From Myxococcales bacterium (lineage in GTDB: Bacteria > Myxococcota_A > UBA9042), in the NCBI GenBank assembly GCA_009692465.1, contig SHZD01000006.1, positions 1-61,852 on the forward strand: 61,852 bases of DNA, given 5' to 3'. The notes beneath the pieces were generated by a model that saw nothing but the letters and a program-made list of their open reading frames with translations, was not told the DNA's origin and did no database searches. Position numbers and translations under genes: made by a program. Shown here piece after piece: positions 1 through 54,960 of this stretch; the stretch's first letter is position 1; each line of letters begins with the position of its first letter.

Positions 1-182
1 CGGCGCTTTCCTCCTAGACAGTTCGCAGGACTGTCTCATTGGCGTACGCAAGTACGCCTCAGTCGTCAAGCCCCTTGCTCCTTGTCGAGCGACAGCGAGC
101 GACAGCGAGCGACAGCGAGCGACAGGGCACTGGCATCCCAAATCGGGGGCCGCAGGGAATTTCGGTGGTGAATTTGGGTAGT
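1..182 (+). repeat. R1 dispersed repeat, copy 1 (3' portion at window start)
   Basis: Begins mid-element with two hairpins (AGACAGT/ACTGTCT and GGCGTAC/GTACGCC), then CCTTGCTCCTTGTC, four decamer units GAGCGACAGC, GGCACTGGCATCCCAAATC and the conserved end GGTGGTGAATTTGGG. Bases 1-113 are identical to the last 113 bases of the window. Short reading frames across it recur at every copy and are repeat-derived, so I do not treat them as genes. Confidence 0.9.
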
Positions 183-1375: not shown

Positions 1376-2323
1376 ATGGCTCGGGTCGGTGGCGCCAACA
1401 CCGTGCAGACCTTGCGCAGCTTGCGCGACGACGATGGCAGCGAAGCCTTTGAAATCGAAAATGATTTCTCCTTTGACTTGAGCGGCCCGCACCAGATCGC
1501 CGTGCCCAAGCGTCAACAAATTCCACAAGATCCGGCCAACTTGGAGCGCCGGATTTCGCACCTTTTTACCCGCGCCAGCAAAGATTTTCAGTTGTTGCAG
1601 GCTGGCGACAAGGTCATGGTCTGCATGTCCGGTGGTAAGGACAGCTATGGGCTTTTGCATTTCATGCAGCGCGCGCAGAAGCACAGTCCGATCAAGTTTG
1701 ACGTGATCGCGGTGCACCTCGATCAAGGCCATCCCGGCTTTCCGCTGCACACGTTGGAAGACTACTTGCGCAACAGCGGTTCGCCCTACGAAATCGTCCA
1801 CTCCCATACCTATGCTATTGTTATGGAAAAGCTGGAGCCCGGCAAAACGACTTGTTCACTCTGTTCACGCTTGCGGCGCGGGATTCTGTACGACACGGCC
1901 AAGAGGCTGGGCTGCAACAAGATTGCTTTGGGCCACCACCGCGACGACATGGCCGCCACATTGTTGCTGAATCTGTTTTTTTGCGGCCAACTCAAAGCGA
2001 TGCCGGCCAAGCTGCGCGCCGATGACGGCATCAACACGGTGATTCGTCCATTGGCCTATGTTCCCGAGGCGATGTTGGTTAAATGGGCGCAACTTCAGAA
2101 GTATCCACTGATCCCCTGCAACTTGTGCAGCCGTCAGCCCGACCTGAAACGGGCGCAAATGAATACGCTGCTCGCTGATATTGATCGCCGCTACCCCAGC
2201 GCCCTGCCGTCTGCCCTTCACGCTGTGCAAAACGTCAAGCCACGCTTCTTGCTTGATCGCAATCTGTACGACTTTGAAGCTACTGCCGGGGCGGCTGACC
2301 GCGACGACGACGCGTTTGGCTAG
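1376..2323 (+). CDS. ttcA: tRNA 2-thiocytidine biosynthesis protein TtcA
   Basis: TtcA-type PP-loop enzyme that adenylates and thiolates C32 of certain tRNAs using an iron-sulfur cluster. From this start, the PP-loop SGGKDS is at residues 85-90, followed by the TtcA cysteine pairs CSLC (160-163) and CNLC (248-251) and the GHHRDD motif. The frame is open upstream to a GTG at 1256, but that extension has no TtcA-like sequence and no Shine-Dalgarno. GTG 1502 is also possible, so the N-terminus is uncertain. The TAG stop is formed by the CTAG at the left edge of repeat R2 copy 1, so the natural C-terminus may have ended at, or been cut by, the insertion. Family assignment is firm. Confidence 0.9.
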   Translation: MARVGGANTVQTLRSLRDDDGSEAFEIENDFSFDLSGPHQIAVPKRQQIPQDPANLERRISHLFTRASKDFQLLQAGDKVMVCMSGGKDSYGLLHFMQRAQKHSPIKFDVIAVHLDQGHPGFPLHTLEDYLRNSGSPYEIVHSHTYAIVMEKLEPGKTTCSLCSRLRRGILYDTAKRLGCNKIALGHHRDDMAATLLLNLFFCGQLKAMPAKLRADDGINTVIRPLAYVPEAMLVKWAQLQKYPLIPCNLCSRQPDLKRAQMNTLLADIDRRYPSALPSALHAVQNVKPRFLLDRNLYDFEATAGAADRDDDAFG

Positions 2324-2538
2324 GAGCGTGTCGGAGTATTCCGACTCGCTCCTAGCGCCGTCTGAGTAGACGGCGGCAACTGTCCGAAACTGCACGAATT
2401 TGATTGGGCCAGTTCTCCGGGCAGTTCTTGGACAGTTGAGAATATCTGAATGGCTAGGAGACTGTCGGATCGTAATAGATTCATTGTGTATAGCCCAATA
2501 GACATTCAAAATGCGTTTGATTTCCGACAGGCTCCTAG
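2320..2538 (+). repeat. R2 MITE-like repeat, copy 1 (219 bp)
   Basis: Starts and ends with CTAG. The left end is a palindrome (CTAGGAGCG, GTCGGA, GTAT, TCCGAC, CGCTCCTAG) and the right end reads TTTCCGACAGGCTCCTAG. Internal stems include CGCCGTCT/AGACGGCG and CAACTGTCC/GGACAGTTG. The left CTAG supplies the ttcA stop codon. Confidence 0.9.
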
Positions 2539-2539
2539 G

Positions 2540-2650
2540 CAGCCGATCGAGTAGGATTTGCGCGCAGTGCCCGTGCTTGTTTCGTGGGTCGCGAGCGATC
2601 GCTACTTTCCTGCACCGGTCAGCTGGCCGAGCCGGTCGAAAGGGATTCGA
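2540..2650 (+). repeat. R3 dispersed repeat, copy 2
   Basis: Carries GCCGATCGAGTAGGATTTGC, then CAGTGCCCGTGCTTGTTTCG and GGGTCGCGAGC, all shared with the copies at 5.6 and 19.0 kb. It is in the orientation of ttcA, from which R2 copy 1 separates it. Confidence 0.6.
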
Positions 2651-2697
2651 CCCAAATGCCGTCTTCCACGCACCTAGTCCTGCGGGGGCCCTAAGCC

Positions 2698-4590
2698 ATG
2701 GCCACGACCGATACCGACGTTCGTCCACCGGATGCGGTCCGCACCGCCGAAAATGGGCGCCTCGAACCGCCTCGCGTCGCCGCCAATTGGCCCGGCGGCA
2801 TCGATGTGGCAACACTGGCAGGAGTCCTTGAAAATCAAGGGTTATTGACCGCCCAACAAGTGGAAGACGTCGGTCGAATGGCGGACCGCCGCAAGGTGGT
2901 GATCGACCGTCAGCGGCAGGCCGACAATGCCGAGGACTATGTGCCGACCAGCGCGGCCGAAGTCATCGCCAGCTTGCAAATGGTCACACCGACGGGCTCG
3001 CAGTTGAACGAAGAGCGCATTCAACACGCGCTGGCCAAAGCCGCCAACTACAAGTTTGTCCGCATTGACCCGCTCAAACTCGACGCTCGGTGGGTAACAT
3101 CTGTTGTTTCACGCAGTTATGCTCGGCGCAACTGCTGCTTGCCGTTGGGTCGCGCCAACGGTCGCTTGGTGATCGCCACCGATAGCCCGTTTATTGGCCC
3201 TGCCCTCGATACTTTGGAAACCCGCGATGGTCAGGCCGCCGATCTGGTGATCTCGATCCGCGCCGACATTTTGCGCTTTATCGACGACGTTTTTGCCTTT
3301 CGCGCCACGATTCGCAATGCCGCCGCTGACTTGGGCGACACCACCATCGACATTGGCAATTTTGAACAGTTGGTCCGCATTGGCCAGCAGGGCAAGGAAG
3401 TCGAAGGCGACGACCGCAACGTCATCCGCGCGGTCGATTTCTTGTTGCAATACGCGCTGGATCAGGGCGCGTCCGACATTCACCTCGAGCCCAAACGCGA
3501 ACAGGGTCATGTGCGGCTGCGCATTGACGGTGTATTGCACGGTGTGCATTCGCTGCCCAAGGTGGTGCATGCGGCAGTGGTGTCGCGAATTAAGACGGTG
3601 GCCCGACTCGATATTGCCGAAAAGCGTCGGCCTCAAGACGGCCGCATCAAGATCCAACACTGCCCGCCCAACATGCCGCCGCGTGAAGTCGAATTGCGAA
3701 TTTCGACCTTGCCGACCGCGTTTGGTGAAAAATGCGTGATGCGTATTTTCGACCCGACGATTTTGTTGCAGGATCTCAGCGGATTGGGGATGTTTTCTCG
3801 CGACCTGGACACCGTGCAAAGCCTAATTCGGCGGCCGCACGGTCTGGTGCTGGTGTGCGGACCGACTGGCTCGGGCAAAACGACGACGCTGTATTCGTGT
3901 CTGCGCGCCATTTCCAGTCCCAACATCAATATCACCACCATCGAAGACCCGATCGAAATGGTCATCGAGGACTTCAATCAGACCGCGGTGCAGCCCAAGG
4001 TCGGCCTCACGTTTGCCGGCGCTCTGCGCACGCTGCTGCGCCAAGATCCTGATGTGATTATGGTTGGCGAAATTCGCGATCCGGAGACGGCCCAAAACGC
4101 CATTCAAGCGGCGATGACCGGCCACTTGGTGCTGTCGACGGTGCATACCAACGACGCGCCAGCGACGATCGCGCGGCTTTTCGACTTGGGCGTCCAGCCT
4201 TATTTGCTGGCGGCGACCCTGCTTGGGGTGGTCGCTCAGCGGCTGCTGCGCAACGTCTGTTTGCATTGCCGCCGCGAGACTGAACTGGCCCCTGAGCAAA
4301 TCGCCGCGCTCGGCTTAGAGACCGGCGGCGATCGCTTTGCGGTGTGGCGCGGCAGTGGCTGTTCGCATTGCCGCGATACCGGGTTGCGTGGGCGGACCGG
4401 CATCTATGAAGTGATGCCCATTGGCGACAAACTTCGCAGATTGGTTGCAGAAAAGGCCGACGCCGGTCGCCTGACTCGCCAAGCGATGGAGGACGGCATG
4501 ACCAGTTTGCGCGAAGCCGCCATCAAGAAGATGGCGCTGGGCCTGACCAGTTTCGATGAGGTGCTCAGAGTCACGACTGAGGCGGAATAG
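2698..4590 (+). CDS. GspE/PilB-type secretion or pilus assembly ATPase
   Basis: Cytoplasmic hexameric ATPase of the type II secretion / type IV pilus family, 630 aa. An N-terminal MshEN-like domain spans roughly residues 40-190. The Walker A GPTGSGKTT is at 388-396. The Walker B stretch DPDVIMVGEIRD lies near 450-460, followed by a His-box region (GHLVLSTVHTNDA). A zinc-binding C-terminal module has CLHC (521-524) and CSHC (555-558). These features are shared by GspE and PilB, and no pilin, secretin or other secretion gene is nearby to decide between them. The ATG at 2698 fits family length. The stop overlaps the next gene's GTG by one base, suggesting translational coupling to the Hsp33-like gene. 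Confidence 0.88.
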   Translation: MATTDTDVRPPDAVRTAENGRLEPPRVAANWPGGIDVATLAGVLENQGLLTAQQVEDVGRMADRRKVVIDRQRQADNAEDYVPTSAAEVIASLQMVTPTGSQLNEERIQHALAKAANYKFVRIDPLKLDARWVTSVVSRSYARRNCCLPLGRANGRLVIATDSPFIGPALDTLETRDGQAADLVISIRADILRFIDDVFAFRATIRNAAADLGDTTIDIGNFEQLVRIGQQGKEVEGDDRNVIRAVDFLLQYALDQGASDIHLEPKREQGHVRLRIDGVLHGVHSLPKVVHAAVVSRIKTVARLDIAEKRRPQDGRIKIQHCPPNMPPREVELRISTLPTAFGEKCVMRIFDPTILLQDLSGLGMFSRDLDTVQSLIRRPHGLVLVCGPTGSGKTTTLYSCLRAISSPNINITTIEDPIEMVIEDFNQTAVQPKVGLTFAGALRTLLRQDPDVIMVGEIRDPETAQNAIQAAMTGHLVLSTVHTNDAPATIARLFDLGVQPYLLAATLLGVVAQRLLRNVCLHCRRETELAPEQIAALGLETGGDRFAVWRGSGCSHCRDTGLRGRTGIYEVMPIGDKLRRLVAEKADAGRLTRQAMEDGMTSLREAAIKKMALGLTSFDEVLRVTTEAE

Positions 4591-5570
4591 TGAGCAAAAG
4601 CAAGTATTTTGACCACGACGGCGTCCCTACCGCTGAGGCCGTTCGGGTCTTGGCTGAGCGCCACGCTCTGCGCATGTCGGCGCCGACCACATTTGTGGAC
4701 CCGGCGCCGCCCGTGCAAGTCGATACCCTCTGGCGAGGGCTGTTGCGCGGCGGTCAGGCGCGCATCTTAGTCGTGCGCGCCACCGCGGCGGTGCAAGAGG
4801 CAGCGCGCCGGGTGCAGGCTTCGGCGGATGTGACCCAATTGCTGGGCGAGTTGGTGGTCAACACTTTGCTAGTGCGCTCGACGCTGAGCCCCGACGAGCG
4901 CCTGCAGATTCACATAGAGCATCAAGGTCCCGCCGGCAAGATCGCTGTGGATGCGTGGCAAGCGGGCGGAGTGCGCGCGTATGTGGCGAAACCGCAAGCT
5001 GAAAAGCGCGAGTTCGGCTTCCTGGTCGGCGCCGGTACTTTGCATGTTTCGCGCAGCGTTGGCGGCCGCAGCTACGCCAGTACAGTCACGCTGGATGGCG
5101 ACGGCATCGACGATTTCGTCATGAATTACCTGTTAGAATCCGAACAGATCTTGTCGCTGGTCCGCTCGGAAGTCACAGTTGACCACGAGGGGCAGGTGGC
5201 GCATGCATTGGGCTATTTGGTGCAGTTGATGCCCGAGGGCAATCGCGACGACATCGCCAAAGTATTGGATAATTTGAAGTCTATTGGCCCACTTGGCGAC
5301 GGAATGAGCGCTGACGATCCGGATGGCCGCCTGTGGGCCAACGCCATCTTAGCCGGGTTCAAATGGGATCAAGTCGCGCGCGAAAGTGTAGCCTTCCTGT
5401 GCCGTTGCAGCCGCGATCGCATGTTGTCGATGTTGTCGAGCTTGCCCGCCAGAGATATCGCCGAGCTCGCTGCCGGCACCGCGCCGCTCGAGCTCGTGTG
5501 CGACTATTGTCTGAGCAAGTTCGCGGTCAAACCGGCAGAATTGCGCGCACTTTTGGCAGAGCCGTCGTAG
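4590..5570 (+). CDS. hslO: Hsp33 redox-regulated chaperone
   Basis: Holdase chaperone that is activated when its zinc-bound cysteines are oxidised. The diagnostic C-terminal zinc centre is visible: CRC at 271-273 and CDYC at 304-307, i.e. CxC-X30-CxxC, within the family spacing. The upstream region (about 60-260) has the Hsp33 core pattern, including a GDGIDDFV-YLLESEQ segment. At 326 aa it is somewhat longer than the usual 290, with a non-conserved N-terminus. The GTG start overlaps the stop of the GspE/PilB-like gene. R3 copy 3 follows the stop. Confidence 0.85.
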   Translation: MSKSKYFDHDGVPTAEAVRVLAERHALRMSAPTTFVDPAPPVQVDTLWRGLLRGGQARILVVRATAAVQEAARRVQASADVTQLLGELVVNTLLVRSTLSPDERLQIHIEHQGPAGKIAVDAWQAGGVRAYVAKPQAEKREFGFLVGAGTLHVSRSVGGRSYASTVTLDGDGIDDFVMNYLLESEQILSLVRSEVTVDHEGQVAHALGYLVQLMPEGNRDDIAKVLDNLKSIGPLGDGMSADDPDGRLWANAILAGFKWDQVARESVAFLCRCSRDRMLSMLSSLPARDIAELAAGTAPLELVCDYCLSKFAVKPAELRALLAEPS

Positions 5571-5589
5571 GCGCGCGGCCGCTCAACAC

Positions 5590-5740
5590 AAGACTGGCTC
5601 GCTAGAGAGCCGATCAAATAAGATTTGCTCGGCGTCTCAGTGCTTGCTTTGTGGGTCGCGAGCCTGCGCCACTTATTCAGTGGCCTGCGGGTTGGCGTCA
5701 GGCCGCTCCGTTTTATTTGGGAATTCTTTGAGGTTCGGCG
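5590..5740 (+). repeat. R3 dispersed repeat, copy 3
   Basis: Contains GAGAGCCGATCAAATAAGAT, GTGCTTGCTTTGTGGGTCGC and GCCGCTCCGTTTTATTTGGG. It lies about 20 bp after the hslO stop and in the same direction. Confidence 0.65.
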
Positions 5741-5756
5741 TTAATTGGTCGGGTCT

Positions 5757-5963
5757 CTAGGAGCGTGTCGGAGTATTCCGACTCGCTCCTCGCGCTGTCT
5801 GGCTAGACGGCGGCAACTGTCCGAAACTGCACGGATTCACTCCGGGCAGTTCTTGGACAGTTGAGAATTTCTGAGAAGCTAGGAGACTGTCAGATCGTAA
5901 TAGATTCATTGTGTATAGCCGGATAGACACTTTATAAACGATTAATTTCCGACAGGCTCCTAG
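5757..5963 (+). repeat. R2 MITE-like repeat, copy 2 (207 bp)
   Basis: Short R2 subtype that lacks a 12-base internal segment present in copies 1 and 4. CTAG is present at both ends. The right CTAG supplies, on the minus strand, the TAG stop of the TatT-like gene. Confidence 0.9.
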
Positions 5964-6973
5964 GGCGCCGGAAAAAACGTATCCACGTCCTTGAGTAGCG
6001 CCTCCGCTTTGCGCTTCTCGACCGCCATTTCCGGGACCATGTCGGCAATGGCATCGCCCTTGGCCGCGCGGACCGTGGCCAGCAGCGATTCAAACAGCGT
6101 GCGGCACGGGTGAACGGCGGGAGTCGGCGCATCGTCAGCGATTTTCTTGGTGCCGATGGCGCACATCTTGGACCGCACATCGACCTTGTTGGCGGCGCGC
6201 ACCACGTACATTTCGGCCATCAAGTTGTAGGTGGGCAAATAGGTGGGCGCGCCCTTGATCGACGCCGAAAAGTGCGAAAACGACCGCGCCAAATCGCCTT
6301 CTGGGAACGGTACTTTGGTGTAATAACCGGCCAAATAGCGATCGGGCGCGAAGTGAAAGTAGTCGGGCTTGAGCGCTAAGAGCTTGCTCATGACCGCAAA
6401 AATCAGATCCTTGTTCGACAGGACCTCCAACAAGTCCTTGGAAAGACCGTACTTACCCATGTGGGTGCAAAACCAGTAAATCGGTTCCACCGCGCGATCA
6501 TCGAGCGCGGCCACCACTTCAGCCATGGGCGCGCCGGTGCAAATCTTGCGCTTCAACACTGGGCTGGTCACCGCCAGCGCGGCGGCCGCGTGGGCCATCC
6601 CACGCTCAAAGCCAGCAATCATCGCCGGTTCCTTACTTTCGCCGGCCAAGCGGTGGTAGCCGTCGGCGACCAAGTAATACAACCGCGCCAGTTTGATGCG
6701 AACCACCGTGTTGTTTGGGTCGGCAGCCAACACTTTTTCGTAGCTTTCAATACCAATCAGCGCCTTGGCGGCGTCGCCGCGGGCGGCGAAGGTGGCATCG
6801 GCCTCGGCAAGGTCGCGCTTGGCGGACTCGGCATCGCCCGTCGGCGCGGGCACATCCGCGCACAGCAGATTCGAAGCCATCTTGGACAGACCGAAGGCAG
6901 TCGCTGGGGCCAGCGTCAGCAGGGCTGCCACCGACAAACTGTGTACAATTGCAATAGATTTGCTTTGTAGCAT
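5960..6973 (-). CDS. TatT-like TPR protein (TRAP transporter T-component family)
   Basis: Exported protein of 337 aa with a signal peptide (residues 1-28, ending near ATAFG). The helical TPR-like body matches my memory of the TatT (Tp0956-like) family, notably a PDYFHFAPDRYLAGYYTKVP-type stretch and an FPEGDL segment. Known TatT forms a periplasmic trimer that helps a TRAP-P binding protein take up hydrophobic ligands, but no TRAP transporter genes are in this window, so the role here is inferred from family only. The stop TAG lies inside the CTAG of R2 copy 2. It is the last gene of the long minus-strand run that begins with selB. Confidence 0.65.
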   Translation of the reverse strand: MLQSKSIAIVHSLSVAALLTLAPATAFGLSKMASNLLCADVPAPTGDAESAKRDLAEADATFAARGDAAKALIGIESYEKVLAADPNNTVVRIKLARLYYLVADGYHRLAGESKEPAMIAGFERGMAHAAAALAVTSPVLKRKICTGAPMAEVVAALDDRAVEPIYWFCTHMGKYGLSKDLLEVLSNKDLIFAVMSKLLALKPDYFHFAPDRYLAGYYTKVPFPEGDLARSFSHFSASIKGAPTYLPTYNLMAEMYVVRAANKVDVRSKMCAIGTKKIADDAPTPAVHPCRTLFESLLATVRAAKGDAIADMVPEMAVEKRKAEALLKDVDTFFPAP

Positions 6974-7071
6974 CGAGGCCTCAGATTAGGGTGTGCGCAG
7001 TGCGAAAGAGTGGACAACGGCGGATCGCACTCAGTGTACGCAAGGTTGGGGCGGCGCTACAAGCAGTTGGA

Positions 7072-8217
7072 TTACAGCGAAGCGAGTTCCAGCCGCACAT
7101 GCACATCCAACGCCGTCGGCAGCCGCGGCAGGTCCTTGCGCAAGCCCCACAGGCGCTTGAGGCATTGGCCCACAACCGGGTTGGCATGTTCAATCGCGGC
7201 GATCTTGGCGGTGCCATCGGTCCCAAGCGTGAACTTGACTTGGACTTCGCCCAACATTTCGTCAGGCGATCCGGCGACATGCCGGTCGTAACAGCCGTGA
7301 ATGTCGCTCAGGATTCCCGCTGTTTTCAGCAGTGTCTGGGTGTCCTCAGGCACCGCGATCAGCCACTTTTCGGCCCGTACCCGACTGAGCGGATGCTGTT
7401 TGGGTTGGTAGCGGTTCAGTTCGCGCTTGGCTTCCACTCGCCACTGCCCGTCCATGTTGCGCCGGTTAATTTCGGCCCATGCCCCTTCGGCCAAACGCAG
7501 CGATTGTGCTTCTATATCAAGGGCTTGCTCGTCGACAATTTGCCGCCAATGGGTCTGAACCTCCGTGGGTTCGTCGGCAGGCAACGGGGTATCGCGAATG
7601 ACTTCGGCGACCCGCGACAGCAGCTTGGATTGGTACACGGCGGTCGCAATCGTCCATTCGGTGGCACGGTAGGTGGACACCAGAGCGGAATAATCGCCAC
7701 TCAAGCCCCCTTTGCGCTCAGCCATGCCGCCATCGGTGCTGGGCACTTCGTCGCCGGCAATGTTTTGGCGCAGGCCCCGAATTTGCGCCGCCAACTGCTC
7801 AGCGGGCTTACTGCCCTTGCCAAACGCGATTTTAGCCTGCATGGCCGCGTCGAAACGCGGCGCCAACAACCAAAACTGGGCCTCAGCCGCCCACGCCGCC
7901 TCCGGTCCGCCATTCTTGGGCAAGCCGCTCTTGGCAAACAGCTTGAGAATTTCTTTGCCCTGTTCTTCGACTTTCTTGGCCCAGTGGGCTGCAAAATACA
8001 GCCGCATCAGGCGACCACGCACCGCAAGCAGCTCAGCGGGAGCGATTTTTTGCGTCAACGCCTGCCGCAACTCGGTCTCGGCCCTCGCCATTTGATCTTT
8101 GAGTTCTTGATTCGACTCGGCGGCACCTGCCGACGGCATGGGGATCAGGCCCAGCGCCAGCGCGGTCGCGACTCCTACCGTCGCCAACCGAACCCAATTG
8201 ACCGCCTTGTTCGCCAT
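7072..8217 (-). CDS. Exported protein with AgmX/PglI-like C-terminal domain
   Basis: 381 aa. The start at 8217 is preferred over an upstream in-frame one at 8253 because GGAG precedes it and a signal peptide (to about residue 33, ending SAGAAE) then begins at the N-terminus. The middle is helical with no recognised motif. The last 90 residues follow the AgmX/PglI C-terminal pattern common in myxobacterial surface and gliding proteins: a conserved Cys (HGCYDRH), a GEVQVKFTLGTDG strand, a second Cys (VVGQCLKRL) and a terminal strand. The two cysteines may pair in the periplasm. Exact function is unknown. Confidence 0.7.
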   Translation of the reverse strand: MANKAVNWVRLATVGVATALALGLIPMPSAGAAESNQELKDQMARAETELRQALTQKIAPAELLAVRGRLMRLYFAAHWAKKVEEQGKEILKLFAKSGLPKNGGPEAAWAAEAQFWLLAPRFDAAMQAKIAFGKGSKPAEQLAAQIRGLRQNIAGDEVPSTDGGMAERKGGLSGDYSALVSTYRATEWTIATAVYQSKLLSRVAEVIRDTPLPADEPTEVQTHWRQIVDEQALDIEAQSLRLAEGAWAEINRRNMDGQWRVEAKRELNRYQPKQHPLSRVRAEKWLIAVPEDTQTLLKTAGILSDIHGCYDRHVAGSPDEMLGEVQVKFTLGTDGTAKIAAIEHANPVVGQCLKRLWGLRKDLPRLPTALDVHVRLELASL

Positions 8218-8313
8218 TGCAACTCCGCTCGACTGCACTATGCAGCCACCCATAGCGCAACGGGGCTGCCAAGGCGGTCATTCAACTCCAAGATCGCGGA
8301 TTTTGGCGGATTG

Positions 8314-8883
8314 TCAAGAATTGGGTGCACTACCGTAGCTGTGGGCCAGTTGATCGAGCAACTGCTGCAGCAGTTCATGCAAAAACGGATCGTCAGCGAT
8401 CATCGGCAGCACGCAGCGCGGAGTCTCTTCGAGATACTTGCGAGCCAGGCGCTCGCGCGGCCACTTGAGGCATGAACGCAAGTTGTCGATGCGGTCGGCT
8501 GCCTTGACCTGCCGAATCGGCAACGGTGACTGCCGCAGCACCTGCCAATACTGATCGTCGGTCTTGCGGGCGTTGGGCACTGCGCGCAGTTGCTTGGACA
8601 GGGCACGCACCGCTGAGCTGACATCTTCCCCAAAAAGAGCAGTCAGTTCATTATGGTGGACGTCACAATCCTCCAGAACGTCGTGCAGCAACGCCACCGC
8701 AAGCAGCCACGACTGCCGCACTTGTGGATTGGGATGCTCGGTTTCCAAGATCGCGCGCACTGCCCGCGGATGGACGATGTAAGGCACTTGCGGGGCGCTG
8801 TCGTCGCCCGTGTTGCGCGTTTGGCCGTCATGAGCGCGCTGGGCAAATTCGTCGGCCAGGACTAGATCGACCTCGTCGAACAT
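8314..8883 (-). CDS. HD-domain phosphohydrolase (RelA/SpoT hydrolase-like)
   Basis: 189 aa from the ATG at 8883, which has GGAGG 7 bases upstream; an in-frame extension to 8967 is less likely. Metal-binding HD signature: YIVHPRAV, then LLHDVLEDC, then KAADRIDNLRSC, the arrangement seen in the RelA/SpoT-type guanosine-polyphosphate hydrolase domain and in stand-alone small alarmone hydrolases. No synthetase, TGS or ACT domain is present. Substrate is not determined. A second protein of the same type is at 60988-61578. Confidence 0.8.
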   Translation of the reverse strand: MFDEVDLVLADEFAQRAHDGQTRNTGDDSAPQVPYIVHPRAVRAILETEHPNPQVRQSWLLAVALLHDVLEDCDVHHNELTALFGEDVSSAVRALSKQLRAVPNARKTDDQYWQVLRQSPLPIRQVKAADRIDNLRSCLKWPRERLARKYLEETPRCVLPMIADDPFLHELLQQLLDQLAHSYGSAPNS

Positions 8884-8926
8884 GCGGTGCCTCCGCCGGG
8901 CTAAATCGGCAGTAAGTATATTGATT

Positions 8927-10471: not shown

Positions 10472-12186
10472 GGCAATTTTGCCTGCACCACTTGCGGGCC
10501 GCCACGCCGTGAGGCCTTGGCGGTCGGCGGCGGCGGCGGATCGGCCAGCACAATCGCCCGCACCGAACCGGCCAGCCACCGCTTAGCCGCAGCCTGCACA
10601 TCGGACACCTGCAGCTTAGCCACTTGATTCCACATCGCAGCGTACCCCGCCAAGTCGCCCCAATTGGCCCACGTTTGGCCCAAGACGTCGGCGCGGCCAT
10701 CGGCGTTGGCCAGTTGACGATAATGCGAGGTCGTGAGCCGCCGGCTGGCGTTGGCGAACTCGGTCGCCGTCAATGGCGCACTGCTCAACAGGGCCACCAC
10801 AGCGGCGTCGACGGCGATCAGTGCGGCTTGAGCACTGTGGCCGGGCCGCAAAGTGACGATGAAGTTGAACGACCCTTGCAGACGCGTTTCGTCCTGAAAA
10901 CAGCCCACCGACGACGCCAGCTTGTGCTCGTCGACCAAACTGCGATGCAGGCGCGCAGACTCGCCGCCACACAGCGCCTCTGCCAGCACCACCAGCGCCG
11001 GGTGATCGGCAGAGGCAAGGGCCACTGTCGGCCACGCGATCGCCAACCGCGCTGCTGCCGCATCGATGGTCATGGTCTTGCGCACCTCAGCCGTTAGTTG
11101 CACGGTGGGTTGGCCGGCAGGCGCACGCTTGGTCGCCACAGTAGTCGGCAACGGTCCAAAACTTTTTACGATTTCGCGCAGTACCGTGGTCTGGTCAAAA
11201 GTCCCTGTCACCACCACCGCGGTCCTGCCGGTGGCATAATGGGCCCGGTAAAACGCAAGCGCGGTATCGCGAGTCATCGCCTCCAGATCGGCCGCCCAAC
11301 CAATCACCGGATGCGCATACACACTATTGCCGTGGACCAAGCGCGCCATCGCCTCGGCAATCTGGCCGTCCACATCGGTATCGATGGTCTCGCGGCGCTC
11401 GTTCTTGACCACTGACAGCTCGCTGCGCACCCCAGCCACAGTCAAGTGCAGATTGACCATCCGATCGGCTTCCATCGCCAAAACCAGCGGCACCACCTGC
11501 GACGGCACCACTTGGTGGTACATGGTCCAGTCCAGCCACGTCGCCGCGTTGGTGTTGGCGCCGTGGGCTTCCAATTCGCGGTCAAAAACCCCAGCTGGCC
11601 GGGCCTTAGTGCCTTTGAACATCAAGTGTTCAAGCAAGTGGGCCGCGCCCGTTTGCCCTGGCGCCTCGTCGGCCGAGCCTGCGCGCACCCACACATGCAC
11701 TGCCGCGACCCCGGCATGCGGATCGGCGGCCATCACCACTTCCAAGCCGTTGGTTAACCGCCACCGTTCAGCGCCAGATGGGCCAAAAGACAATGTTTCT
11801 AGACAGTTTGCGCCGACAATGCCGGCAGCAGTCGCCCACGCCTGCCGCTCTTGGATGGTCGAGGGCTGCGGTTCCAGTTCCACGGTGGGCGGTTGTTGTG
11901 CCATTGCGCTCCGGTGCGGGCTCGCCGCTTCCAGCACCAGCATCCACCCCAACGGCGATGCAAGCGCTGTAATTGCATGAAAAATAGCGGCTCGGCCCAA
12001 TCCTTGTCGACCCGAATGGCGAGTCGGCGGGCAATGGCGCGCGCTGGCGGTCGCTGCCCATGACCCATCAGCTGGCGGCACCCAGTGCCCTTTGCCACAC
12101 CGAATTGGCCCAGCCGCCCCTGTTTGGCATCGGCCCTGATTGGCGGCTAAATTCAAAACAACCGCGGCTTTTCGCTGTGTGTTCAA
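10468..12186 (-). CDS. M16-family zinc metallopeptidase, catalytic subunit
   Basis: Contains the inverted zinc motif HLLEH (residues 183-187 of this frame) followed by FKGT and a downstream acidic ligand region, then a second lobe with SLVDEHKLASSVG. With the adjacent motif-less homologue it forms the usual M16B heterodimer. The start is uncertain. The longest frame opens with a TTG that overlaps the TGA of the ArsA-like gene. The first 65 residues do not look conserved, and a hydrophobic segment at about 69-85 would suit a signal peptide if translation begins further in. Likely a periplasmic peptidase. Confidence 0.82.
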   Translation of the reverse strand: MNTQRKAAVVLNLAANQGRCQTGAAGPIRCGKGHWVPPADGSWAATASARHCPPTRHSGRQGLGRAAIFHAITALASPLGWMLVLEAASPHRSAMAQQPPTVELEPQPSTIQERQAWATAAGIVGANCLETLSFGPSGAERWRLTNGLEVVMAADPHAGVAAVHVWVRAGSADEAPGQTGAAHLLEHLMFKGTKARPAGVFDRELEAHGANTNAATWLDWTMYHQVVPSQVVPLVLAMEADRMVNLHLTVAGVRSELSVVKNERRETIDTDVDGQIAEAMARLVHGNSVYAHPVIGWAADLEAMTRDTALAFYRAHYATGRTAVVVTGTFDQTTVLREIVKSFGPLPTTVATKRAPAGQPTVQLTAEVRKTMTIDAAAARLAIAWPTVALASADHPALVVLAEALCGGESARLHRSLVDEHKLASSVGCFQDETRLQGSFNFIVTLRPGHSAQAALIAVDAAVVALLSSAPLTATEFANASRRLTTSHYRQLANADGRADVLGQTWANWGDLAGYAAMWNQVAKLQVSDVQAAAKRWLAGSVRAIVLADPPPPPTAKASRRGGPQVVQAKLP

Positions 12187-13175
12187 ACTAGACCGCTCGA
12201 CGACGGTCGGAGCGCCGCTTGAGCTCGCAAATCCGCCGCTTCCATTCCGGCTGCCGCAAGTTGGGACAGCTGTTCGATTTGGGCCCGACCAATCGGCCGC
12301 AGCAGGTGCGGCAACTCAACCACTGGCAGCCGACTGTGGTGGTGCAAGCGGGTCAACTGGGCCTGCTGACCGGCCCGCCAATTCTCGTAGGTGTGGGTGG
12401 CTTGCAATGCGCTGGATACCAACGGTTTATCTACTACATGGTGGCGCTTGAGCGTGCGCCGCTGCCCTTCGGTGAGCAATTTGGGCAGCACTTGATTGAC
12501 GAAAAGGTAGCCGGTCGGCACCCCCAGCGTGGTCCGCGCATGCTCGCACAGCTCTAAGGCTTCGGACGCAGGCAGTTCTTGAGGCAGCGTGACCACATGC
12601 AAGGCGGTGCGCAACGGATCTTCCAGCAGGCCGCGCATCGCCCGCGCATCCTCGGCCATCGGGCCCACCGGCACCGCGTTGCAGATCGTTTGCGGCAAGC
12701 GCAACAGCGACACACCGTGCCCTGTGGCCGGGGCGTCGATCACCAGCAAGTCCCAAGTCGGCGCGCCGTTGGCCCTGCGGTCCGCCGCCTCCATGTGCCA
12801 GGCCTTGCCGAGCATGAGCATTTCATTCATGCCTGGGATCATCTTGGTCAAGCGCCGCATCACGTCGTTTTCAAAAACCAAGTTGTGCAGCGCTCGAAAG
12901 CGCAGTTTCATCTGGCCGTACTCGCGCAAGGCTTCCGCTGGGGTCAAATTGGCTGCAAACAGAGGCAGCACCGGGTCGATCTGCACCGGCGCATAGCTGG
13001 CATGGTCATGCCCATAAGCGCGCGCTGCCCAATCGCGGGCCCCCAACTGCACCACACAGGTCCGCAAGCCGTAGCGCGCCGCGCAATAGGCCAAGGCCAG
13101 CGACAACGTAGAACGACCGACGCCGCCCTTGCCGGAGACGATGGCGAAACGGCGGTCAAAAAGGCGACTACGCAT
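12183..13175 (-). CDS. ArsA/MinD-like deviant Walker A ATPase
   Basis: 330 aa SIMIBI-class ATPase. Deviant Walker A GKGGVGRST at residues 15-23; the usual family form is GKGGVGKT/ST, so the second lysine position is Arg here. A Walker B-like LLVIDAPATGHG follows, as in ArsA/Get3 proteins (VFDTAPTGHT). The repeated His-box and metalloid-binding Cys of true arsenite pumps are not seen, and no ars genes are near. Myxobacteria often carry paired ArsA-like ATPases of unclear role, but only one copy is found here. The stop overlaps the first possible start of the M16 gene. Confidence 0.75.
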   Translation of the reverse strand: MRSRLFDRRFAIVSGKGGVGRSTLSLALAYCAARYGLRTCVVQLGARDWAARAYGHDHASYAPVQIDPVLPLFAANLTPAEALREYGQMKLRFRALHNLVFENDVMRRLTKMIPGMNEMLMLGKAWHMEAADRRANGAPTWDLLVIDAPATGHGVSLLRLPQTICNAVPVGPMAEDARAMRGLLEDPLRTALHVVTLPQELPASEALELCEHARTTLGVPTGYLFVNQVLPKLLTEGQRRTLKRHHVVDKPLVSSALQATHTYENWRAGQQAQLTRLHHHSRLPVVELPHLLRPIGRAQIEQLSQLAAAGMEAADLRAQAALRPSSSGLV

Positions 13176-13265
13176 GCGAAGTTGAACCGGTCGGGGCAGG
13201 CACCGCGAGCGCTGCGGGGCATGGCGATCGTGTGGCAGGGCGCGAGCGTTGTCCAGTTGGCCAAT

Positions 13266-15242
13266 TCACGGCGCGGCCACTTTCTGCTGCCACGCTTGCA
13301 GCGCGCGGGCGCGAATCTTGCGGTTGCCAGCAGCGTCGCGCACGGTCACCTTGTCCGCGTCCAGCCATTGTGCAAATGGAATCAGGTGTTTGCGTGTCAG
13401 TCCGAGCAAGTCCTTAAGCTCACCGGTGCTGAACGTTTCGACCTCCGCAAAAGCGGCGATCACGCGGTCGGCCGCCGTGCGCGCCCGGTGGGTGGCCAAA
13501 AAATGGTCCTCGGCCACCCGCACCAACTCGCCCTGTTGAGTGGCCAACACCGCCGCCGCCTGTACGTCTTTGACAGGCAACAGCAAAGTTGCCGCCAGTT
13601 CTGCAAACAGTGGCGGTGCCAAATCGCTGGCGTCGATGGCCGCAACCACCCGCGCCACCGCGTCGGTACTCACGGCGGCCTTAGGCTGAAACCCGGCAAT
13701 TGCGTAGGACTGCCCATCAAATTGGAGGACTGTTCGCTTGACTAGCGCCCCAGCCACCGCCGCCGCCACCGCCGGGTCCAGCCAAGCGCCAAGCAAGCGC
13801 GCAATCGCCTCGGCGTCGAGCCCAGCCCGCGCCGGTTGCTCACGGTGAAATTGGGCAATGGCTGTCTTTAGGCGCGTTTCCAATGCGGTAAACGAAGCAG
13901 TGTCCATGATGCGCCCCGTAGATCCGGCCCGCCGCAGGGTCGCTGTCGCCGTCAGGTCCTTGACAGTGCGCAAAATCGTCGCCGCTGGCAGCGCGCTGCA
14001 CTGGTTCAATTCCAGCTCGGATAGGCCGCGCTCCCCAGCCAGTGCTACCGTAGCGGCGAGCTGCAGCGGCGCTTGCGGCGCCAAGCACTGGTCCAGCAAC
14101 GCCAAAGTCGCCGGTTTGGCCGCTGGTAATCGCCGCGGCCAGCCGAAAAGCACAGTCCCACCGCCAATCGTGCGGCCGCTATGGCCAGCAAGCTGCGAAC
14201 CGCGCACCACGAAACGGCTGTTGGCCGGCAGTGGCATCGGCCGATCAAAAAACACCTCGACCCACGCCAGTTGATCTGGCTCTTGGGGCGACGACGACAA
14301 TTGGCGAATGCGGGCTGCGCAGCTGTCGGTTCCCAAATGCACGGTCGCCCGTGCCTCTTTGGCCAATTGCGGGGCATGAGCAAGCGTGCGCAATCGCGCC
14401 ACGCAGCGCCGACCGACCGCGATCGTCTGCGCGACCGCGACGACATTACCCACCGCAACATCGGCCAGCGTCGCCCCAGCCAAGTTGATCGCGACTCGCC
14501 CAGGCGCAGAAATTTCCGACCTCGCCAGCCCTTGTTGCTGCAAACCGCGAACCCGAAACAGCTTGCCGGACGGCAGCACCGCCAAATTCTGCTCGATCGT
14601 CAGGCTGCCCACCGAGGCAGTGCCCGCGACCACCGTTCCGCGACCTGCGATGGTGAACGCACGGTCGATCCCCATCGCAAACGGCCGCGTATCCGTGCTG
14701 GCTGTTTTGGGCCGCTCGTCGAGCAGTTGTTGGGCAAACTGCGCTATGTGATCGCGCAGTTGGGCAATCAAGTGCGGCTGCAGCGCCGAAAATGACCACA
14801 CCGGGGCCCCTTCCAAAAACGTGCCTTGGGCCAACGTGCAAACGTCCAATTGCGCCAGTTCCAACAGGTCAGCGTCGACCATGTCCACTTTGGACAGCAC
14901 GATCGCGCCGCGCTGGACCCCAAGCAACTGACAAATGGCCAGATGTTCGCGGCCCTGCGGCATGGCGCCCTCATCGGCGGCCACCACCAACACCACCGCG
15001 TCCAAGGCGGCAGCACCCGCGATCATGCGCCGCACAAAGCGTTCGTGGCCCGGCATATCGACCAATGCAACGCGCTGCATCCCATGGCCGGCGACAGGCA
15101 CGTCCAGCCACGCAAAGCCCAGCTCAATGCTGATGCCGCGCCGTTGCTCCTCCACCAGCCGATCGGTTTGCATACCAGTCAGCGCCCGCACCAGCGAGGT
15201 CTTGCCGTGATCGACGTGGCCGGCGATGCCAAACGTCAGCAT
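13266..15242 (-). CDS. selB: Selenocysteine-specific translation elongation factor SelB
   Basis: GTPase that delivers Sec-tRNA to UGA codons with a SECIS element. The ATG at 15242 gives MLTFGIAGHVDHGKTS, with the G1 motif at residues 8-15; an in-frame extension to 15269 adds nothing conserved. G3 DMPGHERF and G4 (SKVD) are present, then the EF-Tu-like beta-barrel domains and the RNA-binding winged-helix repeats that distinguish SelB from EF-Tu (final WH region around FSTGELKDLLGLTRKHLIPF). About 658 aa is normal for the family. No selA, selC, selD or obvious selenoprotein is in the window. First gene of the minus-strand run. Confidence 0.93.
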   Translation of the reverse strand: MLTFGIAGHVDHGKTSLVRALTGMQTDRLVEEQRRGISIELGFAWLDVPVAGHGMQRVALVDMPGHERFVRRMIAGAAALDAVVLVVAADEGAMPQGREHLAICQLLGVQRGAIVLSKVDMVDADLLELAQLDVCTLAQGTFLEGAPVWSFSALQPHLIAQLRDHIAQFAQQLLDERPKTASTDTRPFAMGIDRAFTIAGRGTVVAGTASVGSLTIEQNLAVLPSGKLFRVRGLQQQGLARSEISAPGRVAINLAGATLADVAVGNVVAVAQTIAVGRRCVARLRTLAHAPQLAKEARATVHLGTDSCAARIRQLSSSPQEPDQLAWVEVFFDRPMPLPANSRFVVRGSQLAGHSGRTIGGGTVLFGWPRRLPAAKPATLALLDQCLAPQAPLQLAATVALAGERGLSELELNQCSALPAATILRTVKDLTATATLRRAGSTGRIMDTASFTALETRLKTAIAQFHREQPARAGLDAEAIARLLGAWLDPAVAAAVAGALVKRTVLQFDGQSYAIAGFQPKAAVSTDAVARVVAAIDASDLAPPLFAELAATLLLPVKDVQAAAVLATQQGELVRVAEDHFLATHRARTAADRVIAAFAEVETFSTGELKDLLGLTRKHLIPFAQWLDADKVTVRDAAGNRKIRARALQAWQQKVAAP

Positions 15243-15501
15243 GAAAAGCGCTTGGGCGGGACACCGCATTGTTCAAAATTGCCGCGCATCGAATGGCCCG
15301 CGTAAATGGCGTTGGCAATGCCACTGACAGAGGATAATTGACCCTGCGGCTTGCGCAAGGTAGCTTGCTGCCTCAGGCGGGAGTCGCCAATCGTCGCCAA
15401 ACTCAAGATTGGGCCCCGCAGTTGGCGCAATCGGACTTTGCCCTTCGGGCCGCGACGCGAGCGAGTCGCTTGAAACGCAAGCGGATTTTGGAGCCTGCTA
15501 G

Positions 15502-18500
15502 GTGAATGTTCGCTGCCCACATTGTAGCGCGGTGTTTCCAGCTGGTCCGCTGCCGGACACGGGTTCACGGCTGGTTGAATGCCCCTTGTGCCTGTTGCGC
15601 TTTGACGTCGCCGGCGAAGGCACGATCAGCGTCGCTCAGGCGTCGGCACCGACCGCTGGCGCCATTTCCCAACCCGACGACGAGTTTGAGCAATACGGTT
15701 TGGGCGGCCAAGTGAACGCCGTCAGCACCGGCCTTACGGTGCCGCTGATGCGATCGGCGGGCGGGCCGTCGGCGCCACCGATTGTTCCACGCTCCGCGCC
15801 GCGTCCGCTGCAACCTGTTGATGACGAGGTTGATTTTGAGGCGCTGCTCTCCGATGCTGTCGGCGCGGTCGAAAAATACCAAGACAGGCCAGCGGCTTCG
15901 AACCGCTCCAATCCGTTTGTGCGCATCAGTGCGCCGCGCTCCGGCGGCGGTGTCAGTTTAGCCGGCACAGAGAGCGTTTTTAACAATGACGGCGCTCGCC
16001 AGCCTTTGCAACCGACCAGCGCACCACCGACGCGAACCGGCGTGCTGCAGACTGGTCAGCCCGGTGGTTTTGCCGCTGGGTCCGCGTATGCTGCGGCGCC
16101 AGCGGCCTCACAAGCCCCGACTCATGTTTTGCAAAGTGGATCTGGCGCTGCTGGGGGCTTTCAGCCCTTCGTCAATGTCAATGCCGCCCAGGACTTTCTG
16201 TCCGGTTTTGGCCGAAGCTCTGGGGCGGCGCCTGATGCAGAGCAAAGCTCGTTGGCTTTCGATCCTTTTGGTGGTCAAGGCGGCGCTGGGCCCGCGCCAG
16301 ATTCCGATTCATTGTTTGAATCTGGTGGCGGTTATGCCTCGCAACCGCCCGCGGACGATCAACGGCGGCCCATCAGCGATCTCAACTCGGCGCGGCCGGT
16401 GGCATCAGTCGCTCCGCCGACCATCGGTACCACCAAAAAGCCCAAGCTGACATTCGACCGCCTTCTCGGCTTTGCCATGATCGTTGCGGTGCTGGGTCTC
16501 GCCACTGATTACCTAGGTTTAGGCTTGTTTGCTAGCCACTTGTGGCGGCCTGAGGCGCCAGCAGAGGTCAAGACCGCGCGGCCGTTGCCCAAGGATTTGG
16601 TGACGCCGGTGGTGCTCGACGACACCCGCAAGACCTACGAACTGGAACTGGCACGCTTGGACAAGGCGCTTAAGATGCGACCTGACTCCGCTGGGCTGCA
16701 ATTGCGCCGTGCCTCGGTGTACCTCGACTTGCTCGAGCGGTTTCCAGAGATTTTGCAAGAAGAGCCTGAGATCAAGAAGGGTTTTGACGAACTGGTCAAG
16801 GCTGGCAAGATCGGCGGGCCGCGGCTGGTGGCGCTCGAAGCGCTGTCGCGGGCCGATCTGGCCACCGCAATCAAGCAGTTCGACGCCCTCAAGATCGGCA
16901 GTGCCGACGACCGCGGGGTGGCTGCGCGGGTGCGTCTGCTTGATTTTCGCCAGCGGGTGGAGATCCAAGCCCTCAATCACCCGGGTCTGACCGCGTCACC
17001 GGAGGCCGATCCGCTGCAAACTTTGGGCGCCGATGACCCGTCGTTGGTGCAAGCCAAGCAGTTGCTCGACGCCACTCTGGCCGAATCGCGCGGCGCGGAA
17101 AATGCGAGTAAGCTCATAGTGTTGCAGGCCGAAATCAACGACCGCATGGGCAAGCACGCCGAAGTTGCCGCTGCCCTTGAGCCAATCATCGCCAAGGCGG
17201 CAGAGCACTTAGAGGCCCGGTTGGTGCTTAGTTCCGCGTATTTGGAAATCGGCAAGCTCGACGAGGCGCAAAAGCACTGTGACCACGTCACATTGGCGCT
17301 GGCTGGCCAAGTCAAAGCTCCGGCGGTTCCGCGCAAACTGGCATTCGTTCAAGCTAGATTGGCCGCACGGCGCGGCGACCGCGAAGGTCAGATCTCCGCG
17401 CTGGCGGCCCAAATCGGCGTCAATGCGGGGGACGAGATGGCAGTTGTGCGCCAAGCCCGCCTGACGCTGGCGGAAAAGCACTTCGACGACACGATCAAGA
17501 GTCTGCAACTTGGCAAGAAGAATCAGAAATTTAAGTCTGTCGCTTTTGAAGTGGTGGTGGTGGAGTACTGGTTGACCGTCAACCGCAACGAAGATGCACT
17601 GGCGGAATTGCGCGAGGCGACCAAGCTCTATCCTCAATCCCTAGAATTGCTCTACCTGCGTGGACAAGTGGAAGACAAACAAGCCCATTATGCCACTGCC
17701 CGCGACTATTTTGCCCAAGTTCTGCAGCGTGAACCCAAGCACTTGCGGGCGTCCATTCGGCTCGCTGAGTTGCAAGCGGCGGCCAATCGTCACGATGAAG
17801 CCTTGGCCACCTTGGAGCGCGCCCGTGCTGAGGTCGGCGACGACGAAACGATTTTGCGCCTGCGGGCCGACGAGCTGGCGGCGCTCAAACGCGACGATGA
17901 AGCTCGCAAAGTGATCGACCAGCTGTTGACCCTAGCGCCAGAGAATCGTCGCTACTTGCTGCGAGCGGCGCAGATGGACTTGCGGGCCGGCAATACCGAC
18001 CAAGCGCTGTCCTACCTGCGCAAACTGCGTGCGCAGAAGGCCTTGGACCGCGAGGCGGCGATGCAGCTAGCTCAGGCGCTGAGCGAAAAGAAGACCTTTT
18101 CTGAGGCCGCTGCGACGGTGGAGCCGTTTGCGGACCAGGCGCAAAGTGACGTCGAGCTTAATTGTCTCACTGGCCAGTACTATTTGGACGCGGATCAAGT
18201 CGAAAAAGCCACGGTCTACATTATCCGCGCGGTGCAGACTGCGAACGGCAAAAGCGCGATGGCTCTGTTTCAGTGGGGTCGACTGGCCTTCAAGAAGGGC
18301 GAAGTCGCTGCCGGAACGTCGCGCATTCGCCAAGCGATCGGTCTGGACGCGATGGCTCACGAGTACCGCTACGAGCTGGCAAAAACGCTGCTTGGGGCCA
18401 AGAACGACGCCAATTCGCGCAAAGTCGCCGTCGAAGAGCTCGAAACTATTGAGCGCAGCGCCGCGGGTCTGGCCTTGGCCGAGCATCCGGTCAAGTACTT

Positions 18501-18990
18501 GCCCGATGTTCACCGCCAGTTGGCTCGAGCCTTTTTGGACGCCCACGACTATAACAAGGCGGCGCGCCATCTTTACGCGGTGCTGGCGAAAGTCCCGGAC
18601 GACGTGGACAGCAAGTCGGACTTGGGGCGGTCGCTGTATTACCTGGGCCACAAAGACGCGCTCAAGACGCTGCGCGAAGTGCTGGCGCGCCGACCGGGCG
18701 ATGCGCGCGCCGCGATGTATCTGGGCCTGACGATGCTCAATGCCCGGCAGACCAGCGATGCGCTGCCGCACTTGCAGCATGCGGGCAATTCGGGTGACCG
18801 ACGGCTGGTGGAGAGCTGGTACCATCTTGCGCTGATCTACAAGGAGCGCGATTTGGTGCCGCAAGCGTTGCGGATGGTCGACACCTATCTGGAGCGCGCG
18901 CCCAATGACGAGACCTACCGCGCCGATGCCGAGAGCTTGCGCCGCGGCTTGCAGGGCAGCTTGGGCGACTTGAAGAAAAAACGAAAGTAG
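15502..18990 (+). CDS. Zinc-ribbon, single-pass membrane, TPR-rich protein
   Basis: 1162 aa. Starts at GTG with GGAG 9 bases upstream. An N-terminal zinc ribbon has CPHC (5-8) and CPLC (27-30), followed by a Pro/Gly/Ser-rich linker to about residue 300, one transmembrane helix near 318-340, and then a long array of TPR-like helical repeats to the C-terminus (AYLEIGKLDEAQ, YLRGQVEDKQAHYATARDYF, DLGRSLYYLGHKDA). This layout (cytosolic zinc finger, long linker, membrane anchor, extracytoplasmic TPRs) is common in myxobacterial proteins next to secretion or motility genes. Probably a scaffold; partner unknown. R3 copy 4 follows its stop. Confidence 0.8.
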   Translation: MNVRCPHCSAVFPAGPLPDTGSRLVECPLCLLRFDVAGEGTISVAQASAPTAGAISQPDDEFEQYGLGGQVNAVSTGLTVPLMRSAGGPSAPPIVPRSAPRPLQPVDDEVDFEALLSDAVGAVEKYQDRPAASNRSNPFVRISAPRSGGGVSLAGTESVFNNDGARQPLQPTSAPPTRTGVLQTGQPGGFAAGSAYAAAPAASQAPTHVLQSGSGAAGGFQPFVNVNAAQDFLSGFGRSSGAAPDAEQSSLAFDPFGGQGGAGPAPDSDSLFESGGGYASQPPADDQRRPISDLNSARPVASVAPPTIGTTKKPKLTFDRLLGFAMIVAVLGLATDYLGLGLFASHLWRPEAPAEVKTARPLPKDLVTPVVLDDTRKTYELELARLDKALKMRPDSAGLQLRRASVYLDLLERFPEILQEEPEIKKGFDELVKAGKIGGPRLVALEALSRADLATAIKQFDALKIGSADDRGVAARVRLLDFRQRVEIQALNHPGLTASPEADPLQTLGADDPSLVQAKQLLDATLAESRGAENASKLIVLQAEINDRMGKHAEVAAALEPIIAKAAEHLEARLVLSSAYLEIGKLDEAQKHCDHVTLALAGQVKAPAVPRKLAFVQARLAARRGDREGQISALAAQIGVNAGDEMAVVRQARLTLAEKHFDDTIKSLQLGKKNQKFKSVAFEVVVVEYWLTVNRNEDALAELREATKLYPQSLELLYLRGQVEDKQAHYATARDYFAQVLQREPKHLRASIRLAELQAAANRHDEALATLERARAEVGDDETILRLRADELAALKRDDEARKVIDQLLTLAPENRRYLLRAAQMDLRAGNTDQALSYLRKLRAQKALDREAAMQLAQALSEKKTFSEAAATVEPFADQAQSDVELNCLTGQYYLDADQVEKATVYIIRAVQTANGKSAMALFQWGRLAFKKGEVAAGTSRIRQAIGLDAMAHEYRYELAKTLLGAKNDANSRKVAVEELETIERSAAGLALAEHPVKYLPDVHRQLARAFLDAHDYNKAARHLYAVLAKVPDDVDSKSDLGRSLYYLGHKDALKTLREVLARRPGDARAAMYLGLTMLNARQTSDALPHLQHAGNSGDRRLVESWYHLALIYKERDLVPQALRMVDTYLERAPNDETYRADAESLRRGLQGSLGDLKKKRK

Positions 18991-19003
18991 TTTCGGGTAA
19001 TTG

Positions 19004-19158
19004 GGTTAGGGCCCGTGCAAAATCAAGTCGATTTTGCACCCCGGCCCAGTGCTTGCTTGGTCGGTCGCTAACTCGCGGCTTTGCAAGCCGACTCGACGCT
19101 CCGTTCCAGTCGCGGATCGATCGAGTTATTTTTTCACGAGCCCTTAACTTGCTGGACT
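19004..19158 (+). repeat. R3 dispersed repeat, copy 4
   Basis: Clear R3: outer arms TTAGGGCCCGTG / CACGAGCCCTTAA, inner hairpin GTGCAAAATC/GATTTTGCAC, core GTGCTTGCTTGG, then GCTTTGCAAGCCGACTCG, and a T-run (19128-19135). It starts about 14 bp after the stop of the TPR gene and points the same way, so it could act as a 3'-end or terminator element. Confidence 0.75.
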
Positions 19159-19213
19159 AGCTAGGGCATTTTCTGATTGCTCAAAAGAGCTCTAGCTGAG
19201 TGCAGTCTCGCAA

Positions 19214-19443
19214 CTAGGAGCCTGTCGGAAATCAAACGCATTTTGAATGTCTATCCGGTTATACACAATGAATCTATTGCGATCCGACAGTCTCCTAGCC
19301 ATTCAGATATTCTCAACTGTCCAAGAACTGTCCAAGAACTGCCCGGAGAACTGGCCCAATCAAATTCGTGCAGTTTCGGACAGTTGCCGCCGTCTAGCTA
19401 GACGGCGCTAGGAGCGAGTCGGAATACTCCGACACGCTCCTAG
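19214..19443 (-). repeat. R2 MITE-like repeat, copy 3 (230 bp)
   Basis: Same family as copy 1, reversed, with an extra 11-base tandem duplication (TGTCCAAGAAC twice). CTAG at both ends; the right CTAG supplies the TAG stop of the E1-beta gene on the minus strand. Confidence 0.9.
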
Positions 19444-21645: not shown

Positions 21646-21751
21646 ACCCAAAATACCTGAGCTCGCGGAGAAAATTGCGCGACCCAAACACGGGACCGCG
21701 GGGCAGCAGTGTAGGCGTTTTCGATCCACGTGGAAACATCGGCTGTGCCGT

Positions 21752-21850
21752 GCCGACTTAACGACGGGCCGACTTAACGACGGGCCGACTTAACGACGGG
21801 CCGACTTACCGACGGGCCGACTTACCGACGGGCTGACTTGCCGCCAACGT
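21752..21850 (+). repeat. 17-bp tandem repeat, about 5.5 units
   Basis: Units of GCCGACTTAACGACGGG, the later ones with CC for AA. It sits in the divergent intergenic region between the E1-alpha gene and the BMC-like gene, where both promoters must lie. Confidence 0.95.
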
Positions 21851-27396: not shown

Positions 27397-27540
27397 CCTA
27401 AGGAACTGTGACAATTTAAGTCGATCGATTTGATTTTTGCCGGAGCGGCGAGTCGACTTGCAAAGTCGCGAGCTTGCGACCCACCTAGCCAGCAAATGGA
27501 ACCCTGTGACAGAACAACTTGTTCTGTCACAGTTCCTAAC
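27397..27540 (-). repeat. R3 dispersed repeat, copy 8
   Basis: Reverse orientation: core GGAGCGGCGAGTCGAC, then CGCGAGCTTGCGACCC, and outer arms AGGAACTGTGACA/TGTCACAGTTCCT. Hairpin CTGTGACAGAACAA (27504-27517) / TTGTTCTGTCACAG (27519-27532). Its end contains the TAG stop of the giant gene, so the hairpin would form in the mRNA right after translation ends. Confidence 0.75.
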
Positions 27541-54741: not shown

Positions 54742-54960
54742 CTAGGAGCGTGCCGGAGTATTCCGACTCGCTCCTAGCGCCGTCTGGCTAGACGGCGGCA
54801 ACTGTCCGAAACTGCACGAATTTGATTGGGCAAGTTCTCCGAGCAGTTCTTGGACAGTTGAGAATATCTGAATGGCTAGGAGAATGTCGGATCGTAATAG
54901 ATTCATTGTGTATAACCGTATAGACATTCAAAATGCGTTTGATTTCCGACAGGCTCCTAG
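54742..54960 (+). repeat. R2 MITE-like repeat, copy 4 (219 bp)
   Basis: Nearly identical to copy 1. The ATG at 54933 within its right end starts the downstream lipoprotein cytochrome, so the repeat encodes the first nine residues (MRLISDRLL). Confidence 0.9.

Follow-up and report, generated by a model that had tools for sequence, protein, structure and literature searches.

An abundant miniature transposon that enters CTAG, and its occurrence at stop codons in a Myxococcales genome

Three of the five copies of a short repeat, R2, in contig SHZD01000006.1 of a Myxococcales bacterium (assembly GCA_009692465.1; a stretch of 61,852 nucleotides, henceforth the window) end precisely where a gene ends. 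This raises the question of whether the insertions cut the genes short, are retained at their 3' ends for some function, or simply do no harm there. A preliminary description of the window had placed the stops of ttcA, a TatT-like gene and an E1-beta-like gene within the outer CTAG of R2 copies, and checking base by base confirmed all three sets of coordinates. Gene calls with a codon model trained on the genome itself likewise put these stops in copies 1, 2 and 3. The features concerned are:

1376-2323, forward strand: ttcA, tRNA 2-thiocytidine synthetase (NCBIfam NF007972 TtcA, 366 bits)
2321-2323, forward strand: TAG stop of ttcA, reading ...GGC TAG, inside CTAG 2320-2323
2320-2538, forward strand: R2 copy 1, 219 bp; its left outer CTAG, 2320-2323, holds the ttcA stop
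5757-5963, forward strand: R2 copy 2, 207 bp; its right outer CTAG, 5960-5963, holds the TatT-like stop
5960-6931, reverse strand: TatT-like gene (Pfam PF16811, TAtT); stop 5960-5962 in CTAG 5960-5963
19214-19443, reverse strand: R2 copy 3, 230 bp; its left outer CTAG, 19440-19443, holds the E1-beta-like stop
19440-20495, reverse strand: E1-beta-like gene with Transket_pyr and Transketolase_C domains; stop 19440-19442 in CTAG 19440-19443
54742-54960, forward strand: R2 copy 4, 219 bp; intergenic, 125 bases past one stop and 98 ahead of the next start
57135-57341, reverse strand: R2 copy 5, 207 bp; not at a stop, entered by the predicted ORF 56571-57257, with another ORF beginning at its edge

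The ORF 56571-57257, which is without a Pfam match, would acquire about 41 codons from copy 5. Elsewhere in the window we noted a very long reverse-strand ORF (27536-34879) that contains numerous internal repeats, each of about 40-60 bases, and has an apparently cysteine-rich product, and short tandem arrays at 59871-60095 (period 25), 21749-21839 (period 16) and 49172-49282 (period 15). An identical 113-base direct repeat forms the two contig ends (window 1-113 and 61740-61852), so either the contig is circular or a shared repeat marks a break in it.

R2 is a non-autonomous miniature inverted-repeat transposon (MITE) that is very abundant in this uncultured myxobacterium-like genome, which comprises 5.82 Mb in 294 contigs. 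The element is 207-230 bp long, contains no gene and is present in hundreds of copies, most of the full ones being 207 or 219 bp in length. Its ends read CTAGGAGC.TGTCGGA, also given as GAGC.TGTCGGA, with the full outer form CTAGGAGCGTGTCGGA ... TCCGACAGGCTCCTAG. Matches to the end motif CTAGGAGNNTGTCGGA number 21 in the window, against 0.1 expected by chance; the genome as a whole holds 544+544 end motifs when up to one mismatch is allowed, and 228 exact copies of the core of the left (L) hairpin. Each element consists of this 36-nt L hairpin (CTAGGAGCGTGTCGGAGTATTCCGACTCGCTCCTAG), a spacer folding as two hairpins and an 85-nt right (R) hairpin; copy 1 folds as RNA with -97 kcal/mol (z = -8.6 relative to shuffles), and an Rfam search of the window gave zero family matches. 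Of 87 full copies, 74 have the outer CTAG at both ends, and the others are altered on one side. We also encountered lone 36-nt palindromes bounded by CTAG from which the rest of R2 is absent (L066:3990-4025 and L110:11985-12020), and the smallest unit able to move may therefore be the L hairpin by itself. One further copy, at L117:8608-8826, is inserted in the loop of a different palindromic repeat of high copy number (CTTTTCTGTCAGGG...CCCTGACAGAAAAG), of which the sample described below contains 63 matches free of R2.

That R2 targets CTAG and duplicates it, as had been proposed from the window, is borne out by the empty sites of repeats that host it. In the repeat family around L125:8609-8815, 14 of 15 R2-free members have a single CTAG at the site, and in the filled copy R2 is flanked by a CTAG on each side. 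Other host families show an empty site of 4 bases, either CTAG or mostly one base off, from which nothing has been removed. Some families lack any member with CTAG at the site (they read CTCG or CTAA), and for these a point change before insertion or a loose targeting must be assumed. R2 thus enters CTAG with a 4-bp duplication, which by sequence looks identical to a duplication of TA alone at an obligatory CTAG.

A likely source of the transposase emerged from a sister species (G002), whose contig C350 carries a complete IS1182-family transposase between TAGGAGCCTGTCGGG and TCCGACAGGCTCCTAG, the same ends as those of R2. This protein scores 357 bits against the IS1182 model NF033551 (cut-off 270), as opposed to 68 bits against the nearest IS5 model, and also matches PF05598, PF13751 and PF01609. 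In the R2-bearing genome, two contigs end within an IS that starts with CTAGGAGCCTGTCGGACTATCG and then reads MSRSFRPHKSDALFLLPP, which we take to resemble the start of IS1182-type transposases; these partial IS copies have the exact R2 end, and no intact copy was found in this genome. Judging from the matching ends, an IS of the IS1182 family is the probable source of the transposase for R2. The sister species has in addition a related 181-bp element of different sequence with the same CTAG ends, and 5 of its 16 classifiable copies lie on C-TAG stops. In the G002 loci L278-L296 this element keeps the two-hairpin plan and the CTAG ends, while the hairpin loops and the spacer differ; the hairpin architecture thus outlasts the sequence between the two elements.

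To determine how often R2 sits on stops we surveyed 1.79 of the 5.82 Mb, combining stretches picked around R2 copies together with the window (set 1) and contig stretches picked without regard to R2 (set 2). The resulting counts are those of a simple gene caller applied to a fragmented metagenome-assembled genome, in which contigs are often broken at R2, and set 1 is selected for R2. Of the 232 copies that could be classified, 36 (15.5%) have the stop of a gene precisely within their outer CTAG; set 1 contributes 25 such cases among 151 copies, and set 2 contributes 11 among 81. As regards CTAGs that lack R2, the same sample has 1493 within genes, 727 between genes and 131 at stops; C-TAG stops therefore make up 5.6% of this total, or 15.3% once the interiors of coding regions are left aside. 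When copies with two readable flanks and with one were counted separately, 25.5 stop copies were expected against the 36 seen (Poisson p = 0.028), an excess of about 1.4-fold over the supply of CTAG with one-sided copies allowed for. Among complete copies, 26 of 102 (25%) are on stops, as compared with the above 15.3% (odds ratio 1.9, p = 0.011), and in set 2 by itself the excess is not significant.

The description of the window had called three of five copies at stops far from random. The observation itself is exact, but the proportion is well above the genome rate and marks the window as a lucky one: at a stop rate of 15% at least three of five would be seen with a probability of 0.03, and at 25%, the rate for copies with both flanks readable, with a probability of 0.10. 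What stands in the 1.79-Mb sample is a modest excess, and most of the pattern reflects CTAG supply and purifying selection. R2 is nearly absent inside genes, where a single end counted as lying across a gene call and five read-ins stand against 1493 genic CTAGs; sites in the 50 bases ahead of a start are avoided about two-fold. At CTAGs 1-30 bases beyond a stop R2 is about 2-fold enriched, and a comparison of stops with these sites revealed no preference for the stops (odds ratio 0.71, p = 0.25). Taken together, the distribution is that of a CTAG-specific element whose harmful insertions are removed, with a slight surplus at the 3' ends of genes.

The surplus leads to the reading on which R2 would be maintained at stops as a 3' end element, acting as a terminator, an RNA stabiliser or a brake on translation. 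The suggestion that an R2 hairpin would be placed at the 3' end of the mRNA was supported, in that a hairpin begins at the stop codon at all three window sites, with the UAG in the base of a stem of about -27 kcal/mol:

2320-2355, forward strand: L hairpin of copy 1, 36 nt, -26.8 kcal/mol as RNA
5879-5963, reverse strand: R hairpin of copy 2, 85 nt, -27.2 kcal/mol as RNA from the TatT-like gene
19408-19443, reverse strand: L hairpin of copy 3, 36 nt, -26.8 kcal/mol as RNA from the E1-beta-like gene

Such a stem must be opened by the ribosome in order to read the stop, and an effect on termination is thus conceivable. The embedding of stops in these hairpins, the modest excess over CTAG supply and the enrichment of sites just past stops all speak for a 3' end function. 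However, terminator prediction on copy 1 called none and found no GC-rich hairpin with a T run. Furthermore, the two ends of the element are used equally at stops (19 L ends versus 18 R ends), and stop copies are no more conserved than intergenic ones (identity to the consensus 0.938 versus 0.943, p 0.29). Selective avoidance of promoters and genes accounts for most of the pattern. Hence we regard a maintained 3' end element as unlikely, and there is similarly little probability that the R2-hairpin stops form a genome-wide set of genes with altered termination or 3' mRNA fate, in which R2 is kept for regulation and not merely tolerated.

A second possibility is that R2 swaps an older TGA or TAA stop for its own TAG, in which case CTAG would not be required beforehand. 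It draws on the two closest relatives, where the three window genes end in TGA or TAA and never in TAG. Against it stand the empty sites in repeats, which are CTAG or mostly one base off. Orthologous stops in general vary among TGA, TAA and TAG; using concatenated C-terminal queries, we found TAG in 14 of 29 readable orthologues of R2-bearing genes, equal to the 14 of 29 for control C-TAG genes free of R2. The shared fraction speaks against replacement of other stops, while for a pre-existing TAG as such these equal numbers decide nothing in either direction. On balance we consider stop replacement improbable.

The preliminary description had offered as an alternative that the insertions trimmed the proteins, R2 having brought an in-frame TAG that cut them short. 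The outer TAG is indeed part of the R2 end in nearly every copy, and a few genes do read into the element (d = 36, 36, 50, 123 and 147). Yet each of the three proteins in the window terminates at, or within a few residues of, the position where its orthologues without R2 do, as would be the case if insertion at C-TAG leaves the protein unchanged. Moreover, only one frame in three stops at once, so truncation in random frames would give about two read-ins for each exact match; the opposite was seen, with 37 of 42 gene ends in the immediate-stop frame and 5 reading on. The full-length C-termini and this ratio speak strongly against trimming, which has very little probability left. Least probable of all is that R2 targets and replaces terminator hairpins, and hence comes to lie at gene ends, in the manner of IS1272, an IS1182-family element that inserts at stem-loops and deletes them without duplication, several of its targets being terminators (PMC4923244, PMC5678879): comparison with the empty sites of R2 reveals that 4 bp were duplicated and that no hairpin disappeared, and its insertion sites are neither more palindromic nor better folding than other CTAGs; hairpin targeting of this kind was rejected on both grounds.

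The reading that we favor, and consider very probable, is that R2 is a MITE moved by an IS1182-type enzyme that enters and duplicates CTAG, is silent at C-TAG stops and is purged from genes. An IS1182-family transposase, as suggested by the IS with the same ends, would insert R2 into the palindrome CTAG and duplicate its 4 bp. Within a coding frame CTAG would be readable as C-TAG only at the stop codon itself, and the stop would thus be the sole silent position among sites that touch a gene, given that the upstream CTAG of the duplicate would retain it. Insertions elsewhere in genes would be purged, as their near absence implies, and the copies that remain would be those in intergenic CTAGs, just past stops and on C-TAG stops. 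As a side effect the stop codon would become the base of a strong hairpin. The notion of C-TAG stops as a safe landing place is thus supported both by the CTAG duplication and by the unchanged C-termini. Being its own reverse complement, a single CTAG can stop both genes of a convergent pair before insertion, and two can do so afterwards. Our sample contains one convergent pair with both stops in the CTAGs flanking R2, and at locus L289 of the sister species the related element lies between convergent genes that each stop in its flanking CTAG.

TAG stops supplied by repeats have a precedent in another class of elements, the GTAG-class REP repeats, whose terminal TAG is often the stop of a flanking gene and which, like R2, are palindromic and present in high copy number (PMC3733652). 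The REPs are 20-40 bp long with GTAG at one end and are associated with RAYT enzymes of the IS200/IS605 type (PMC3733652), whereas R2 spans 207-230 bp and its CTAG, found at both ends, is a target duplication flanking ends that match an IS1182-type DDE element. We accordingly rejected R2 as a GTAG REP or BIME, since this would call for a palindrome of 20-40 bp with GTAG on one foot, and R2 has CTAG at both ends of 207-230 bp. In its target R2 resembles IS5, which duplicates a Py-T-A-Pu tetranucleotide, most often CTAG (PMC5493358), although the transposase of IS5 differs from that of the IS with R2 ends. The latter shares its family with IS1272, which removes hairpins, as opposed to the entry of R2 into CTAG with a 4-bp duplication. 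Among named bacterial MITEs, ERIC, RUP and Nezha are likewise short, non-coding and structured, with inverted ends and a location near genes (PMC3733652), but R2 differs from them in its four consecutive hairpins and its specificity for CTAG. On sequence grounds, R2 can therefore be classed as a MITE that combines an IS5-like target with IS1182-like ends.

R2 thus offers a clean and countable case in which target specificity and the genetic code would together provide a densely packed genome with neutral places for insertion. With CTAG as the target, the stop would be the only in-frame position that can be duplicated harmlessly, and two convergent genes would both be protected by the palindrome. 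R2 also represents an element with IS1182-type ends that uses CTAG duplication, unlike the hairpin-replacing IS1272. Finally, a single genome with hundreds of strong hairpins, dozens of them at stops, is open to tests of termination and of the 3' ends of mRNAs.
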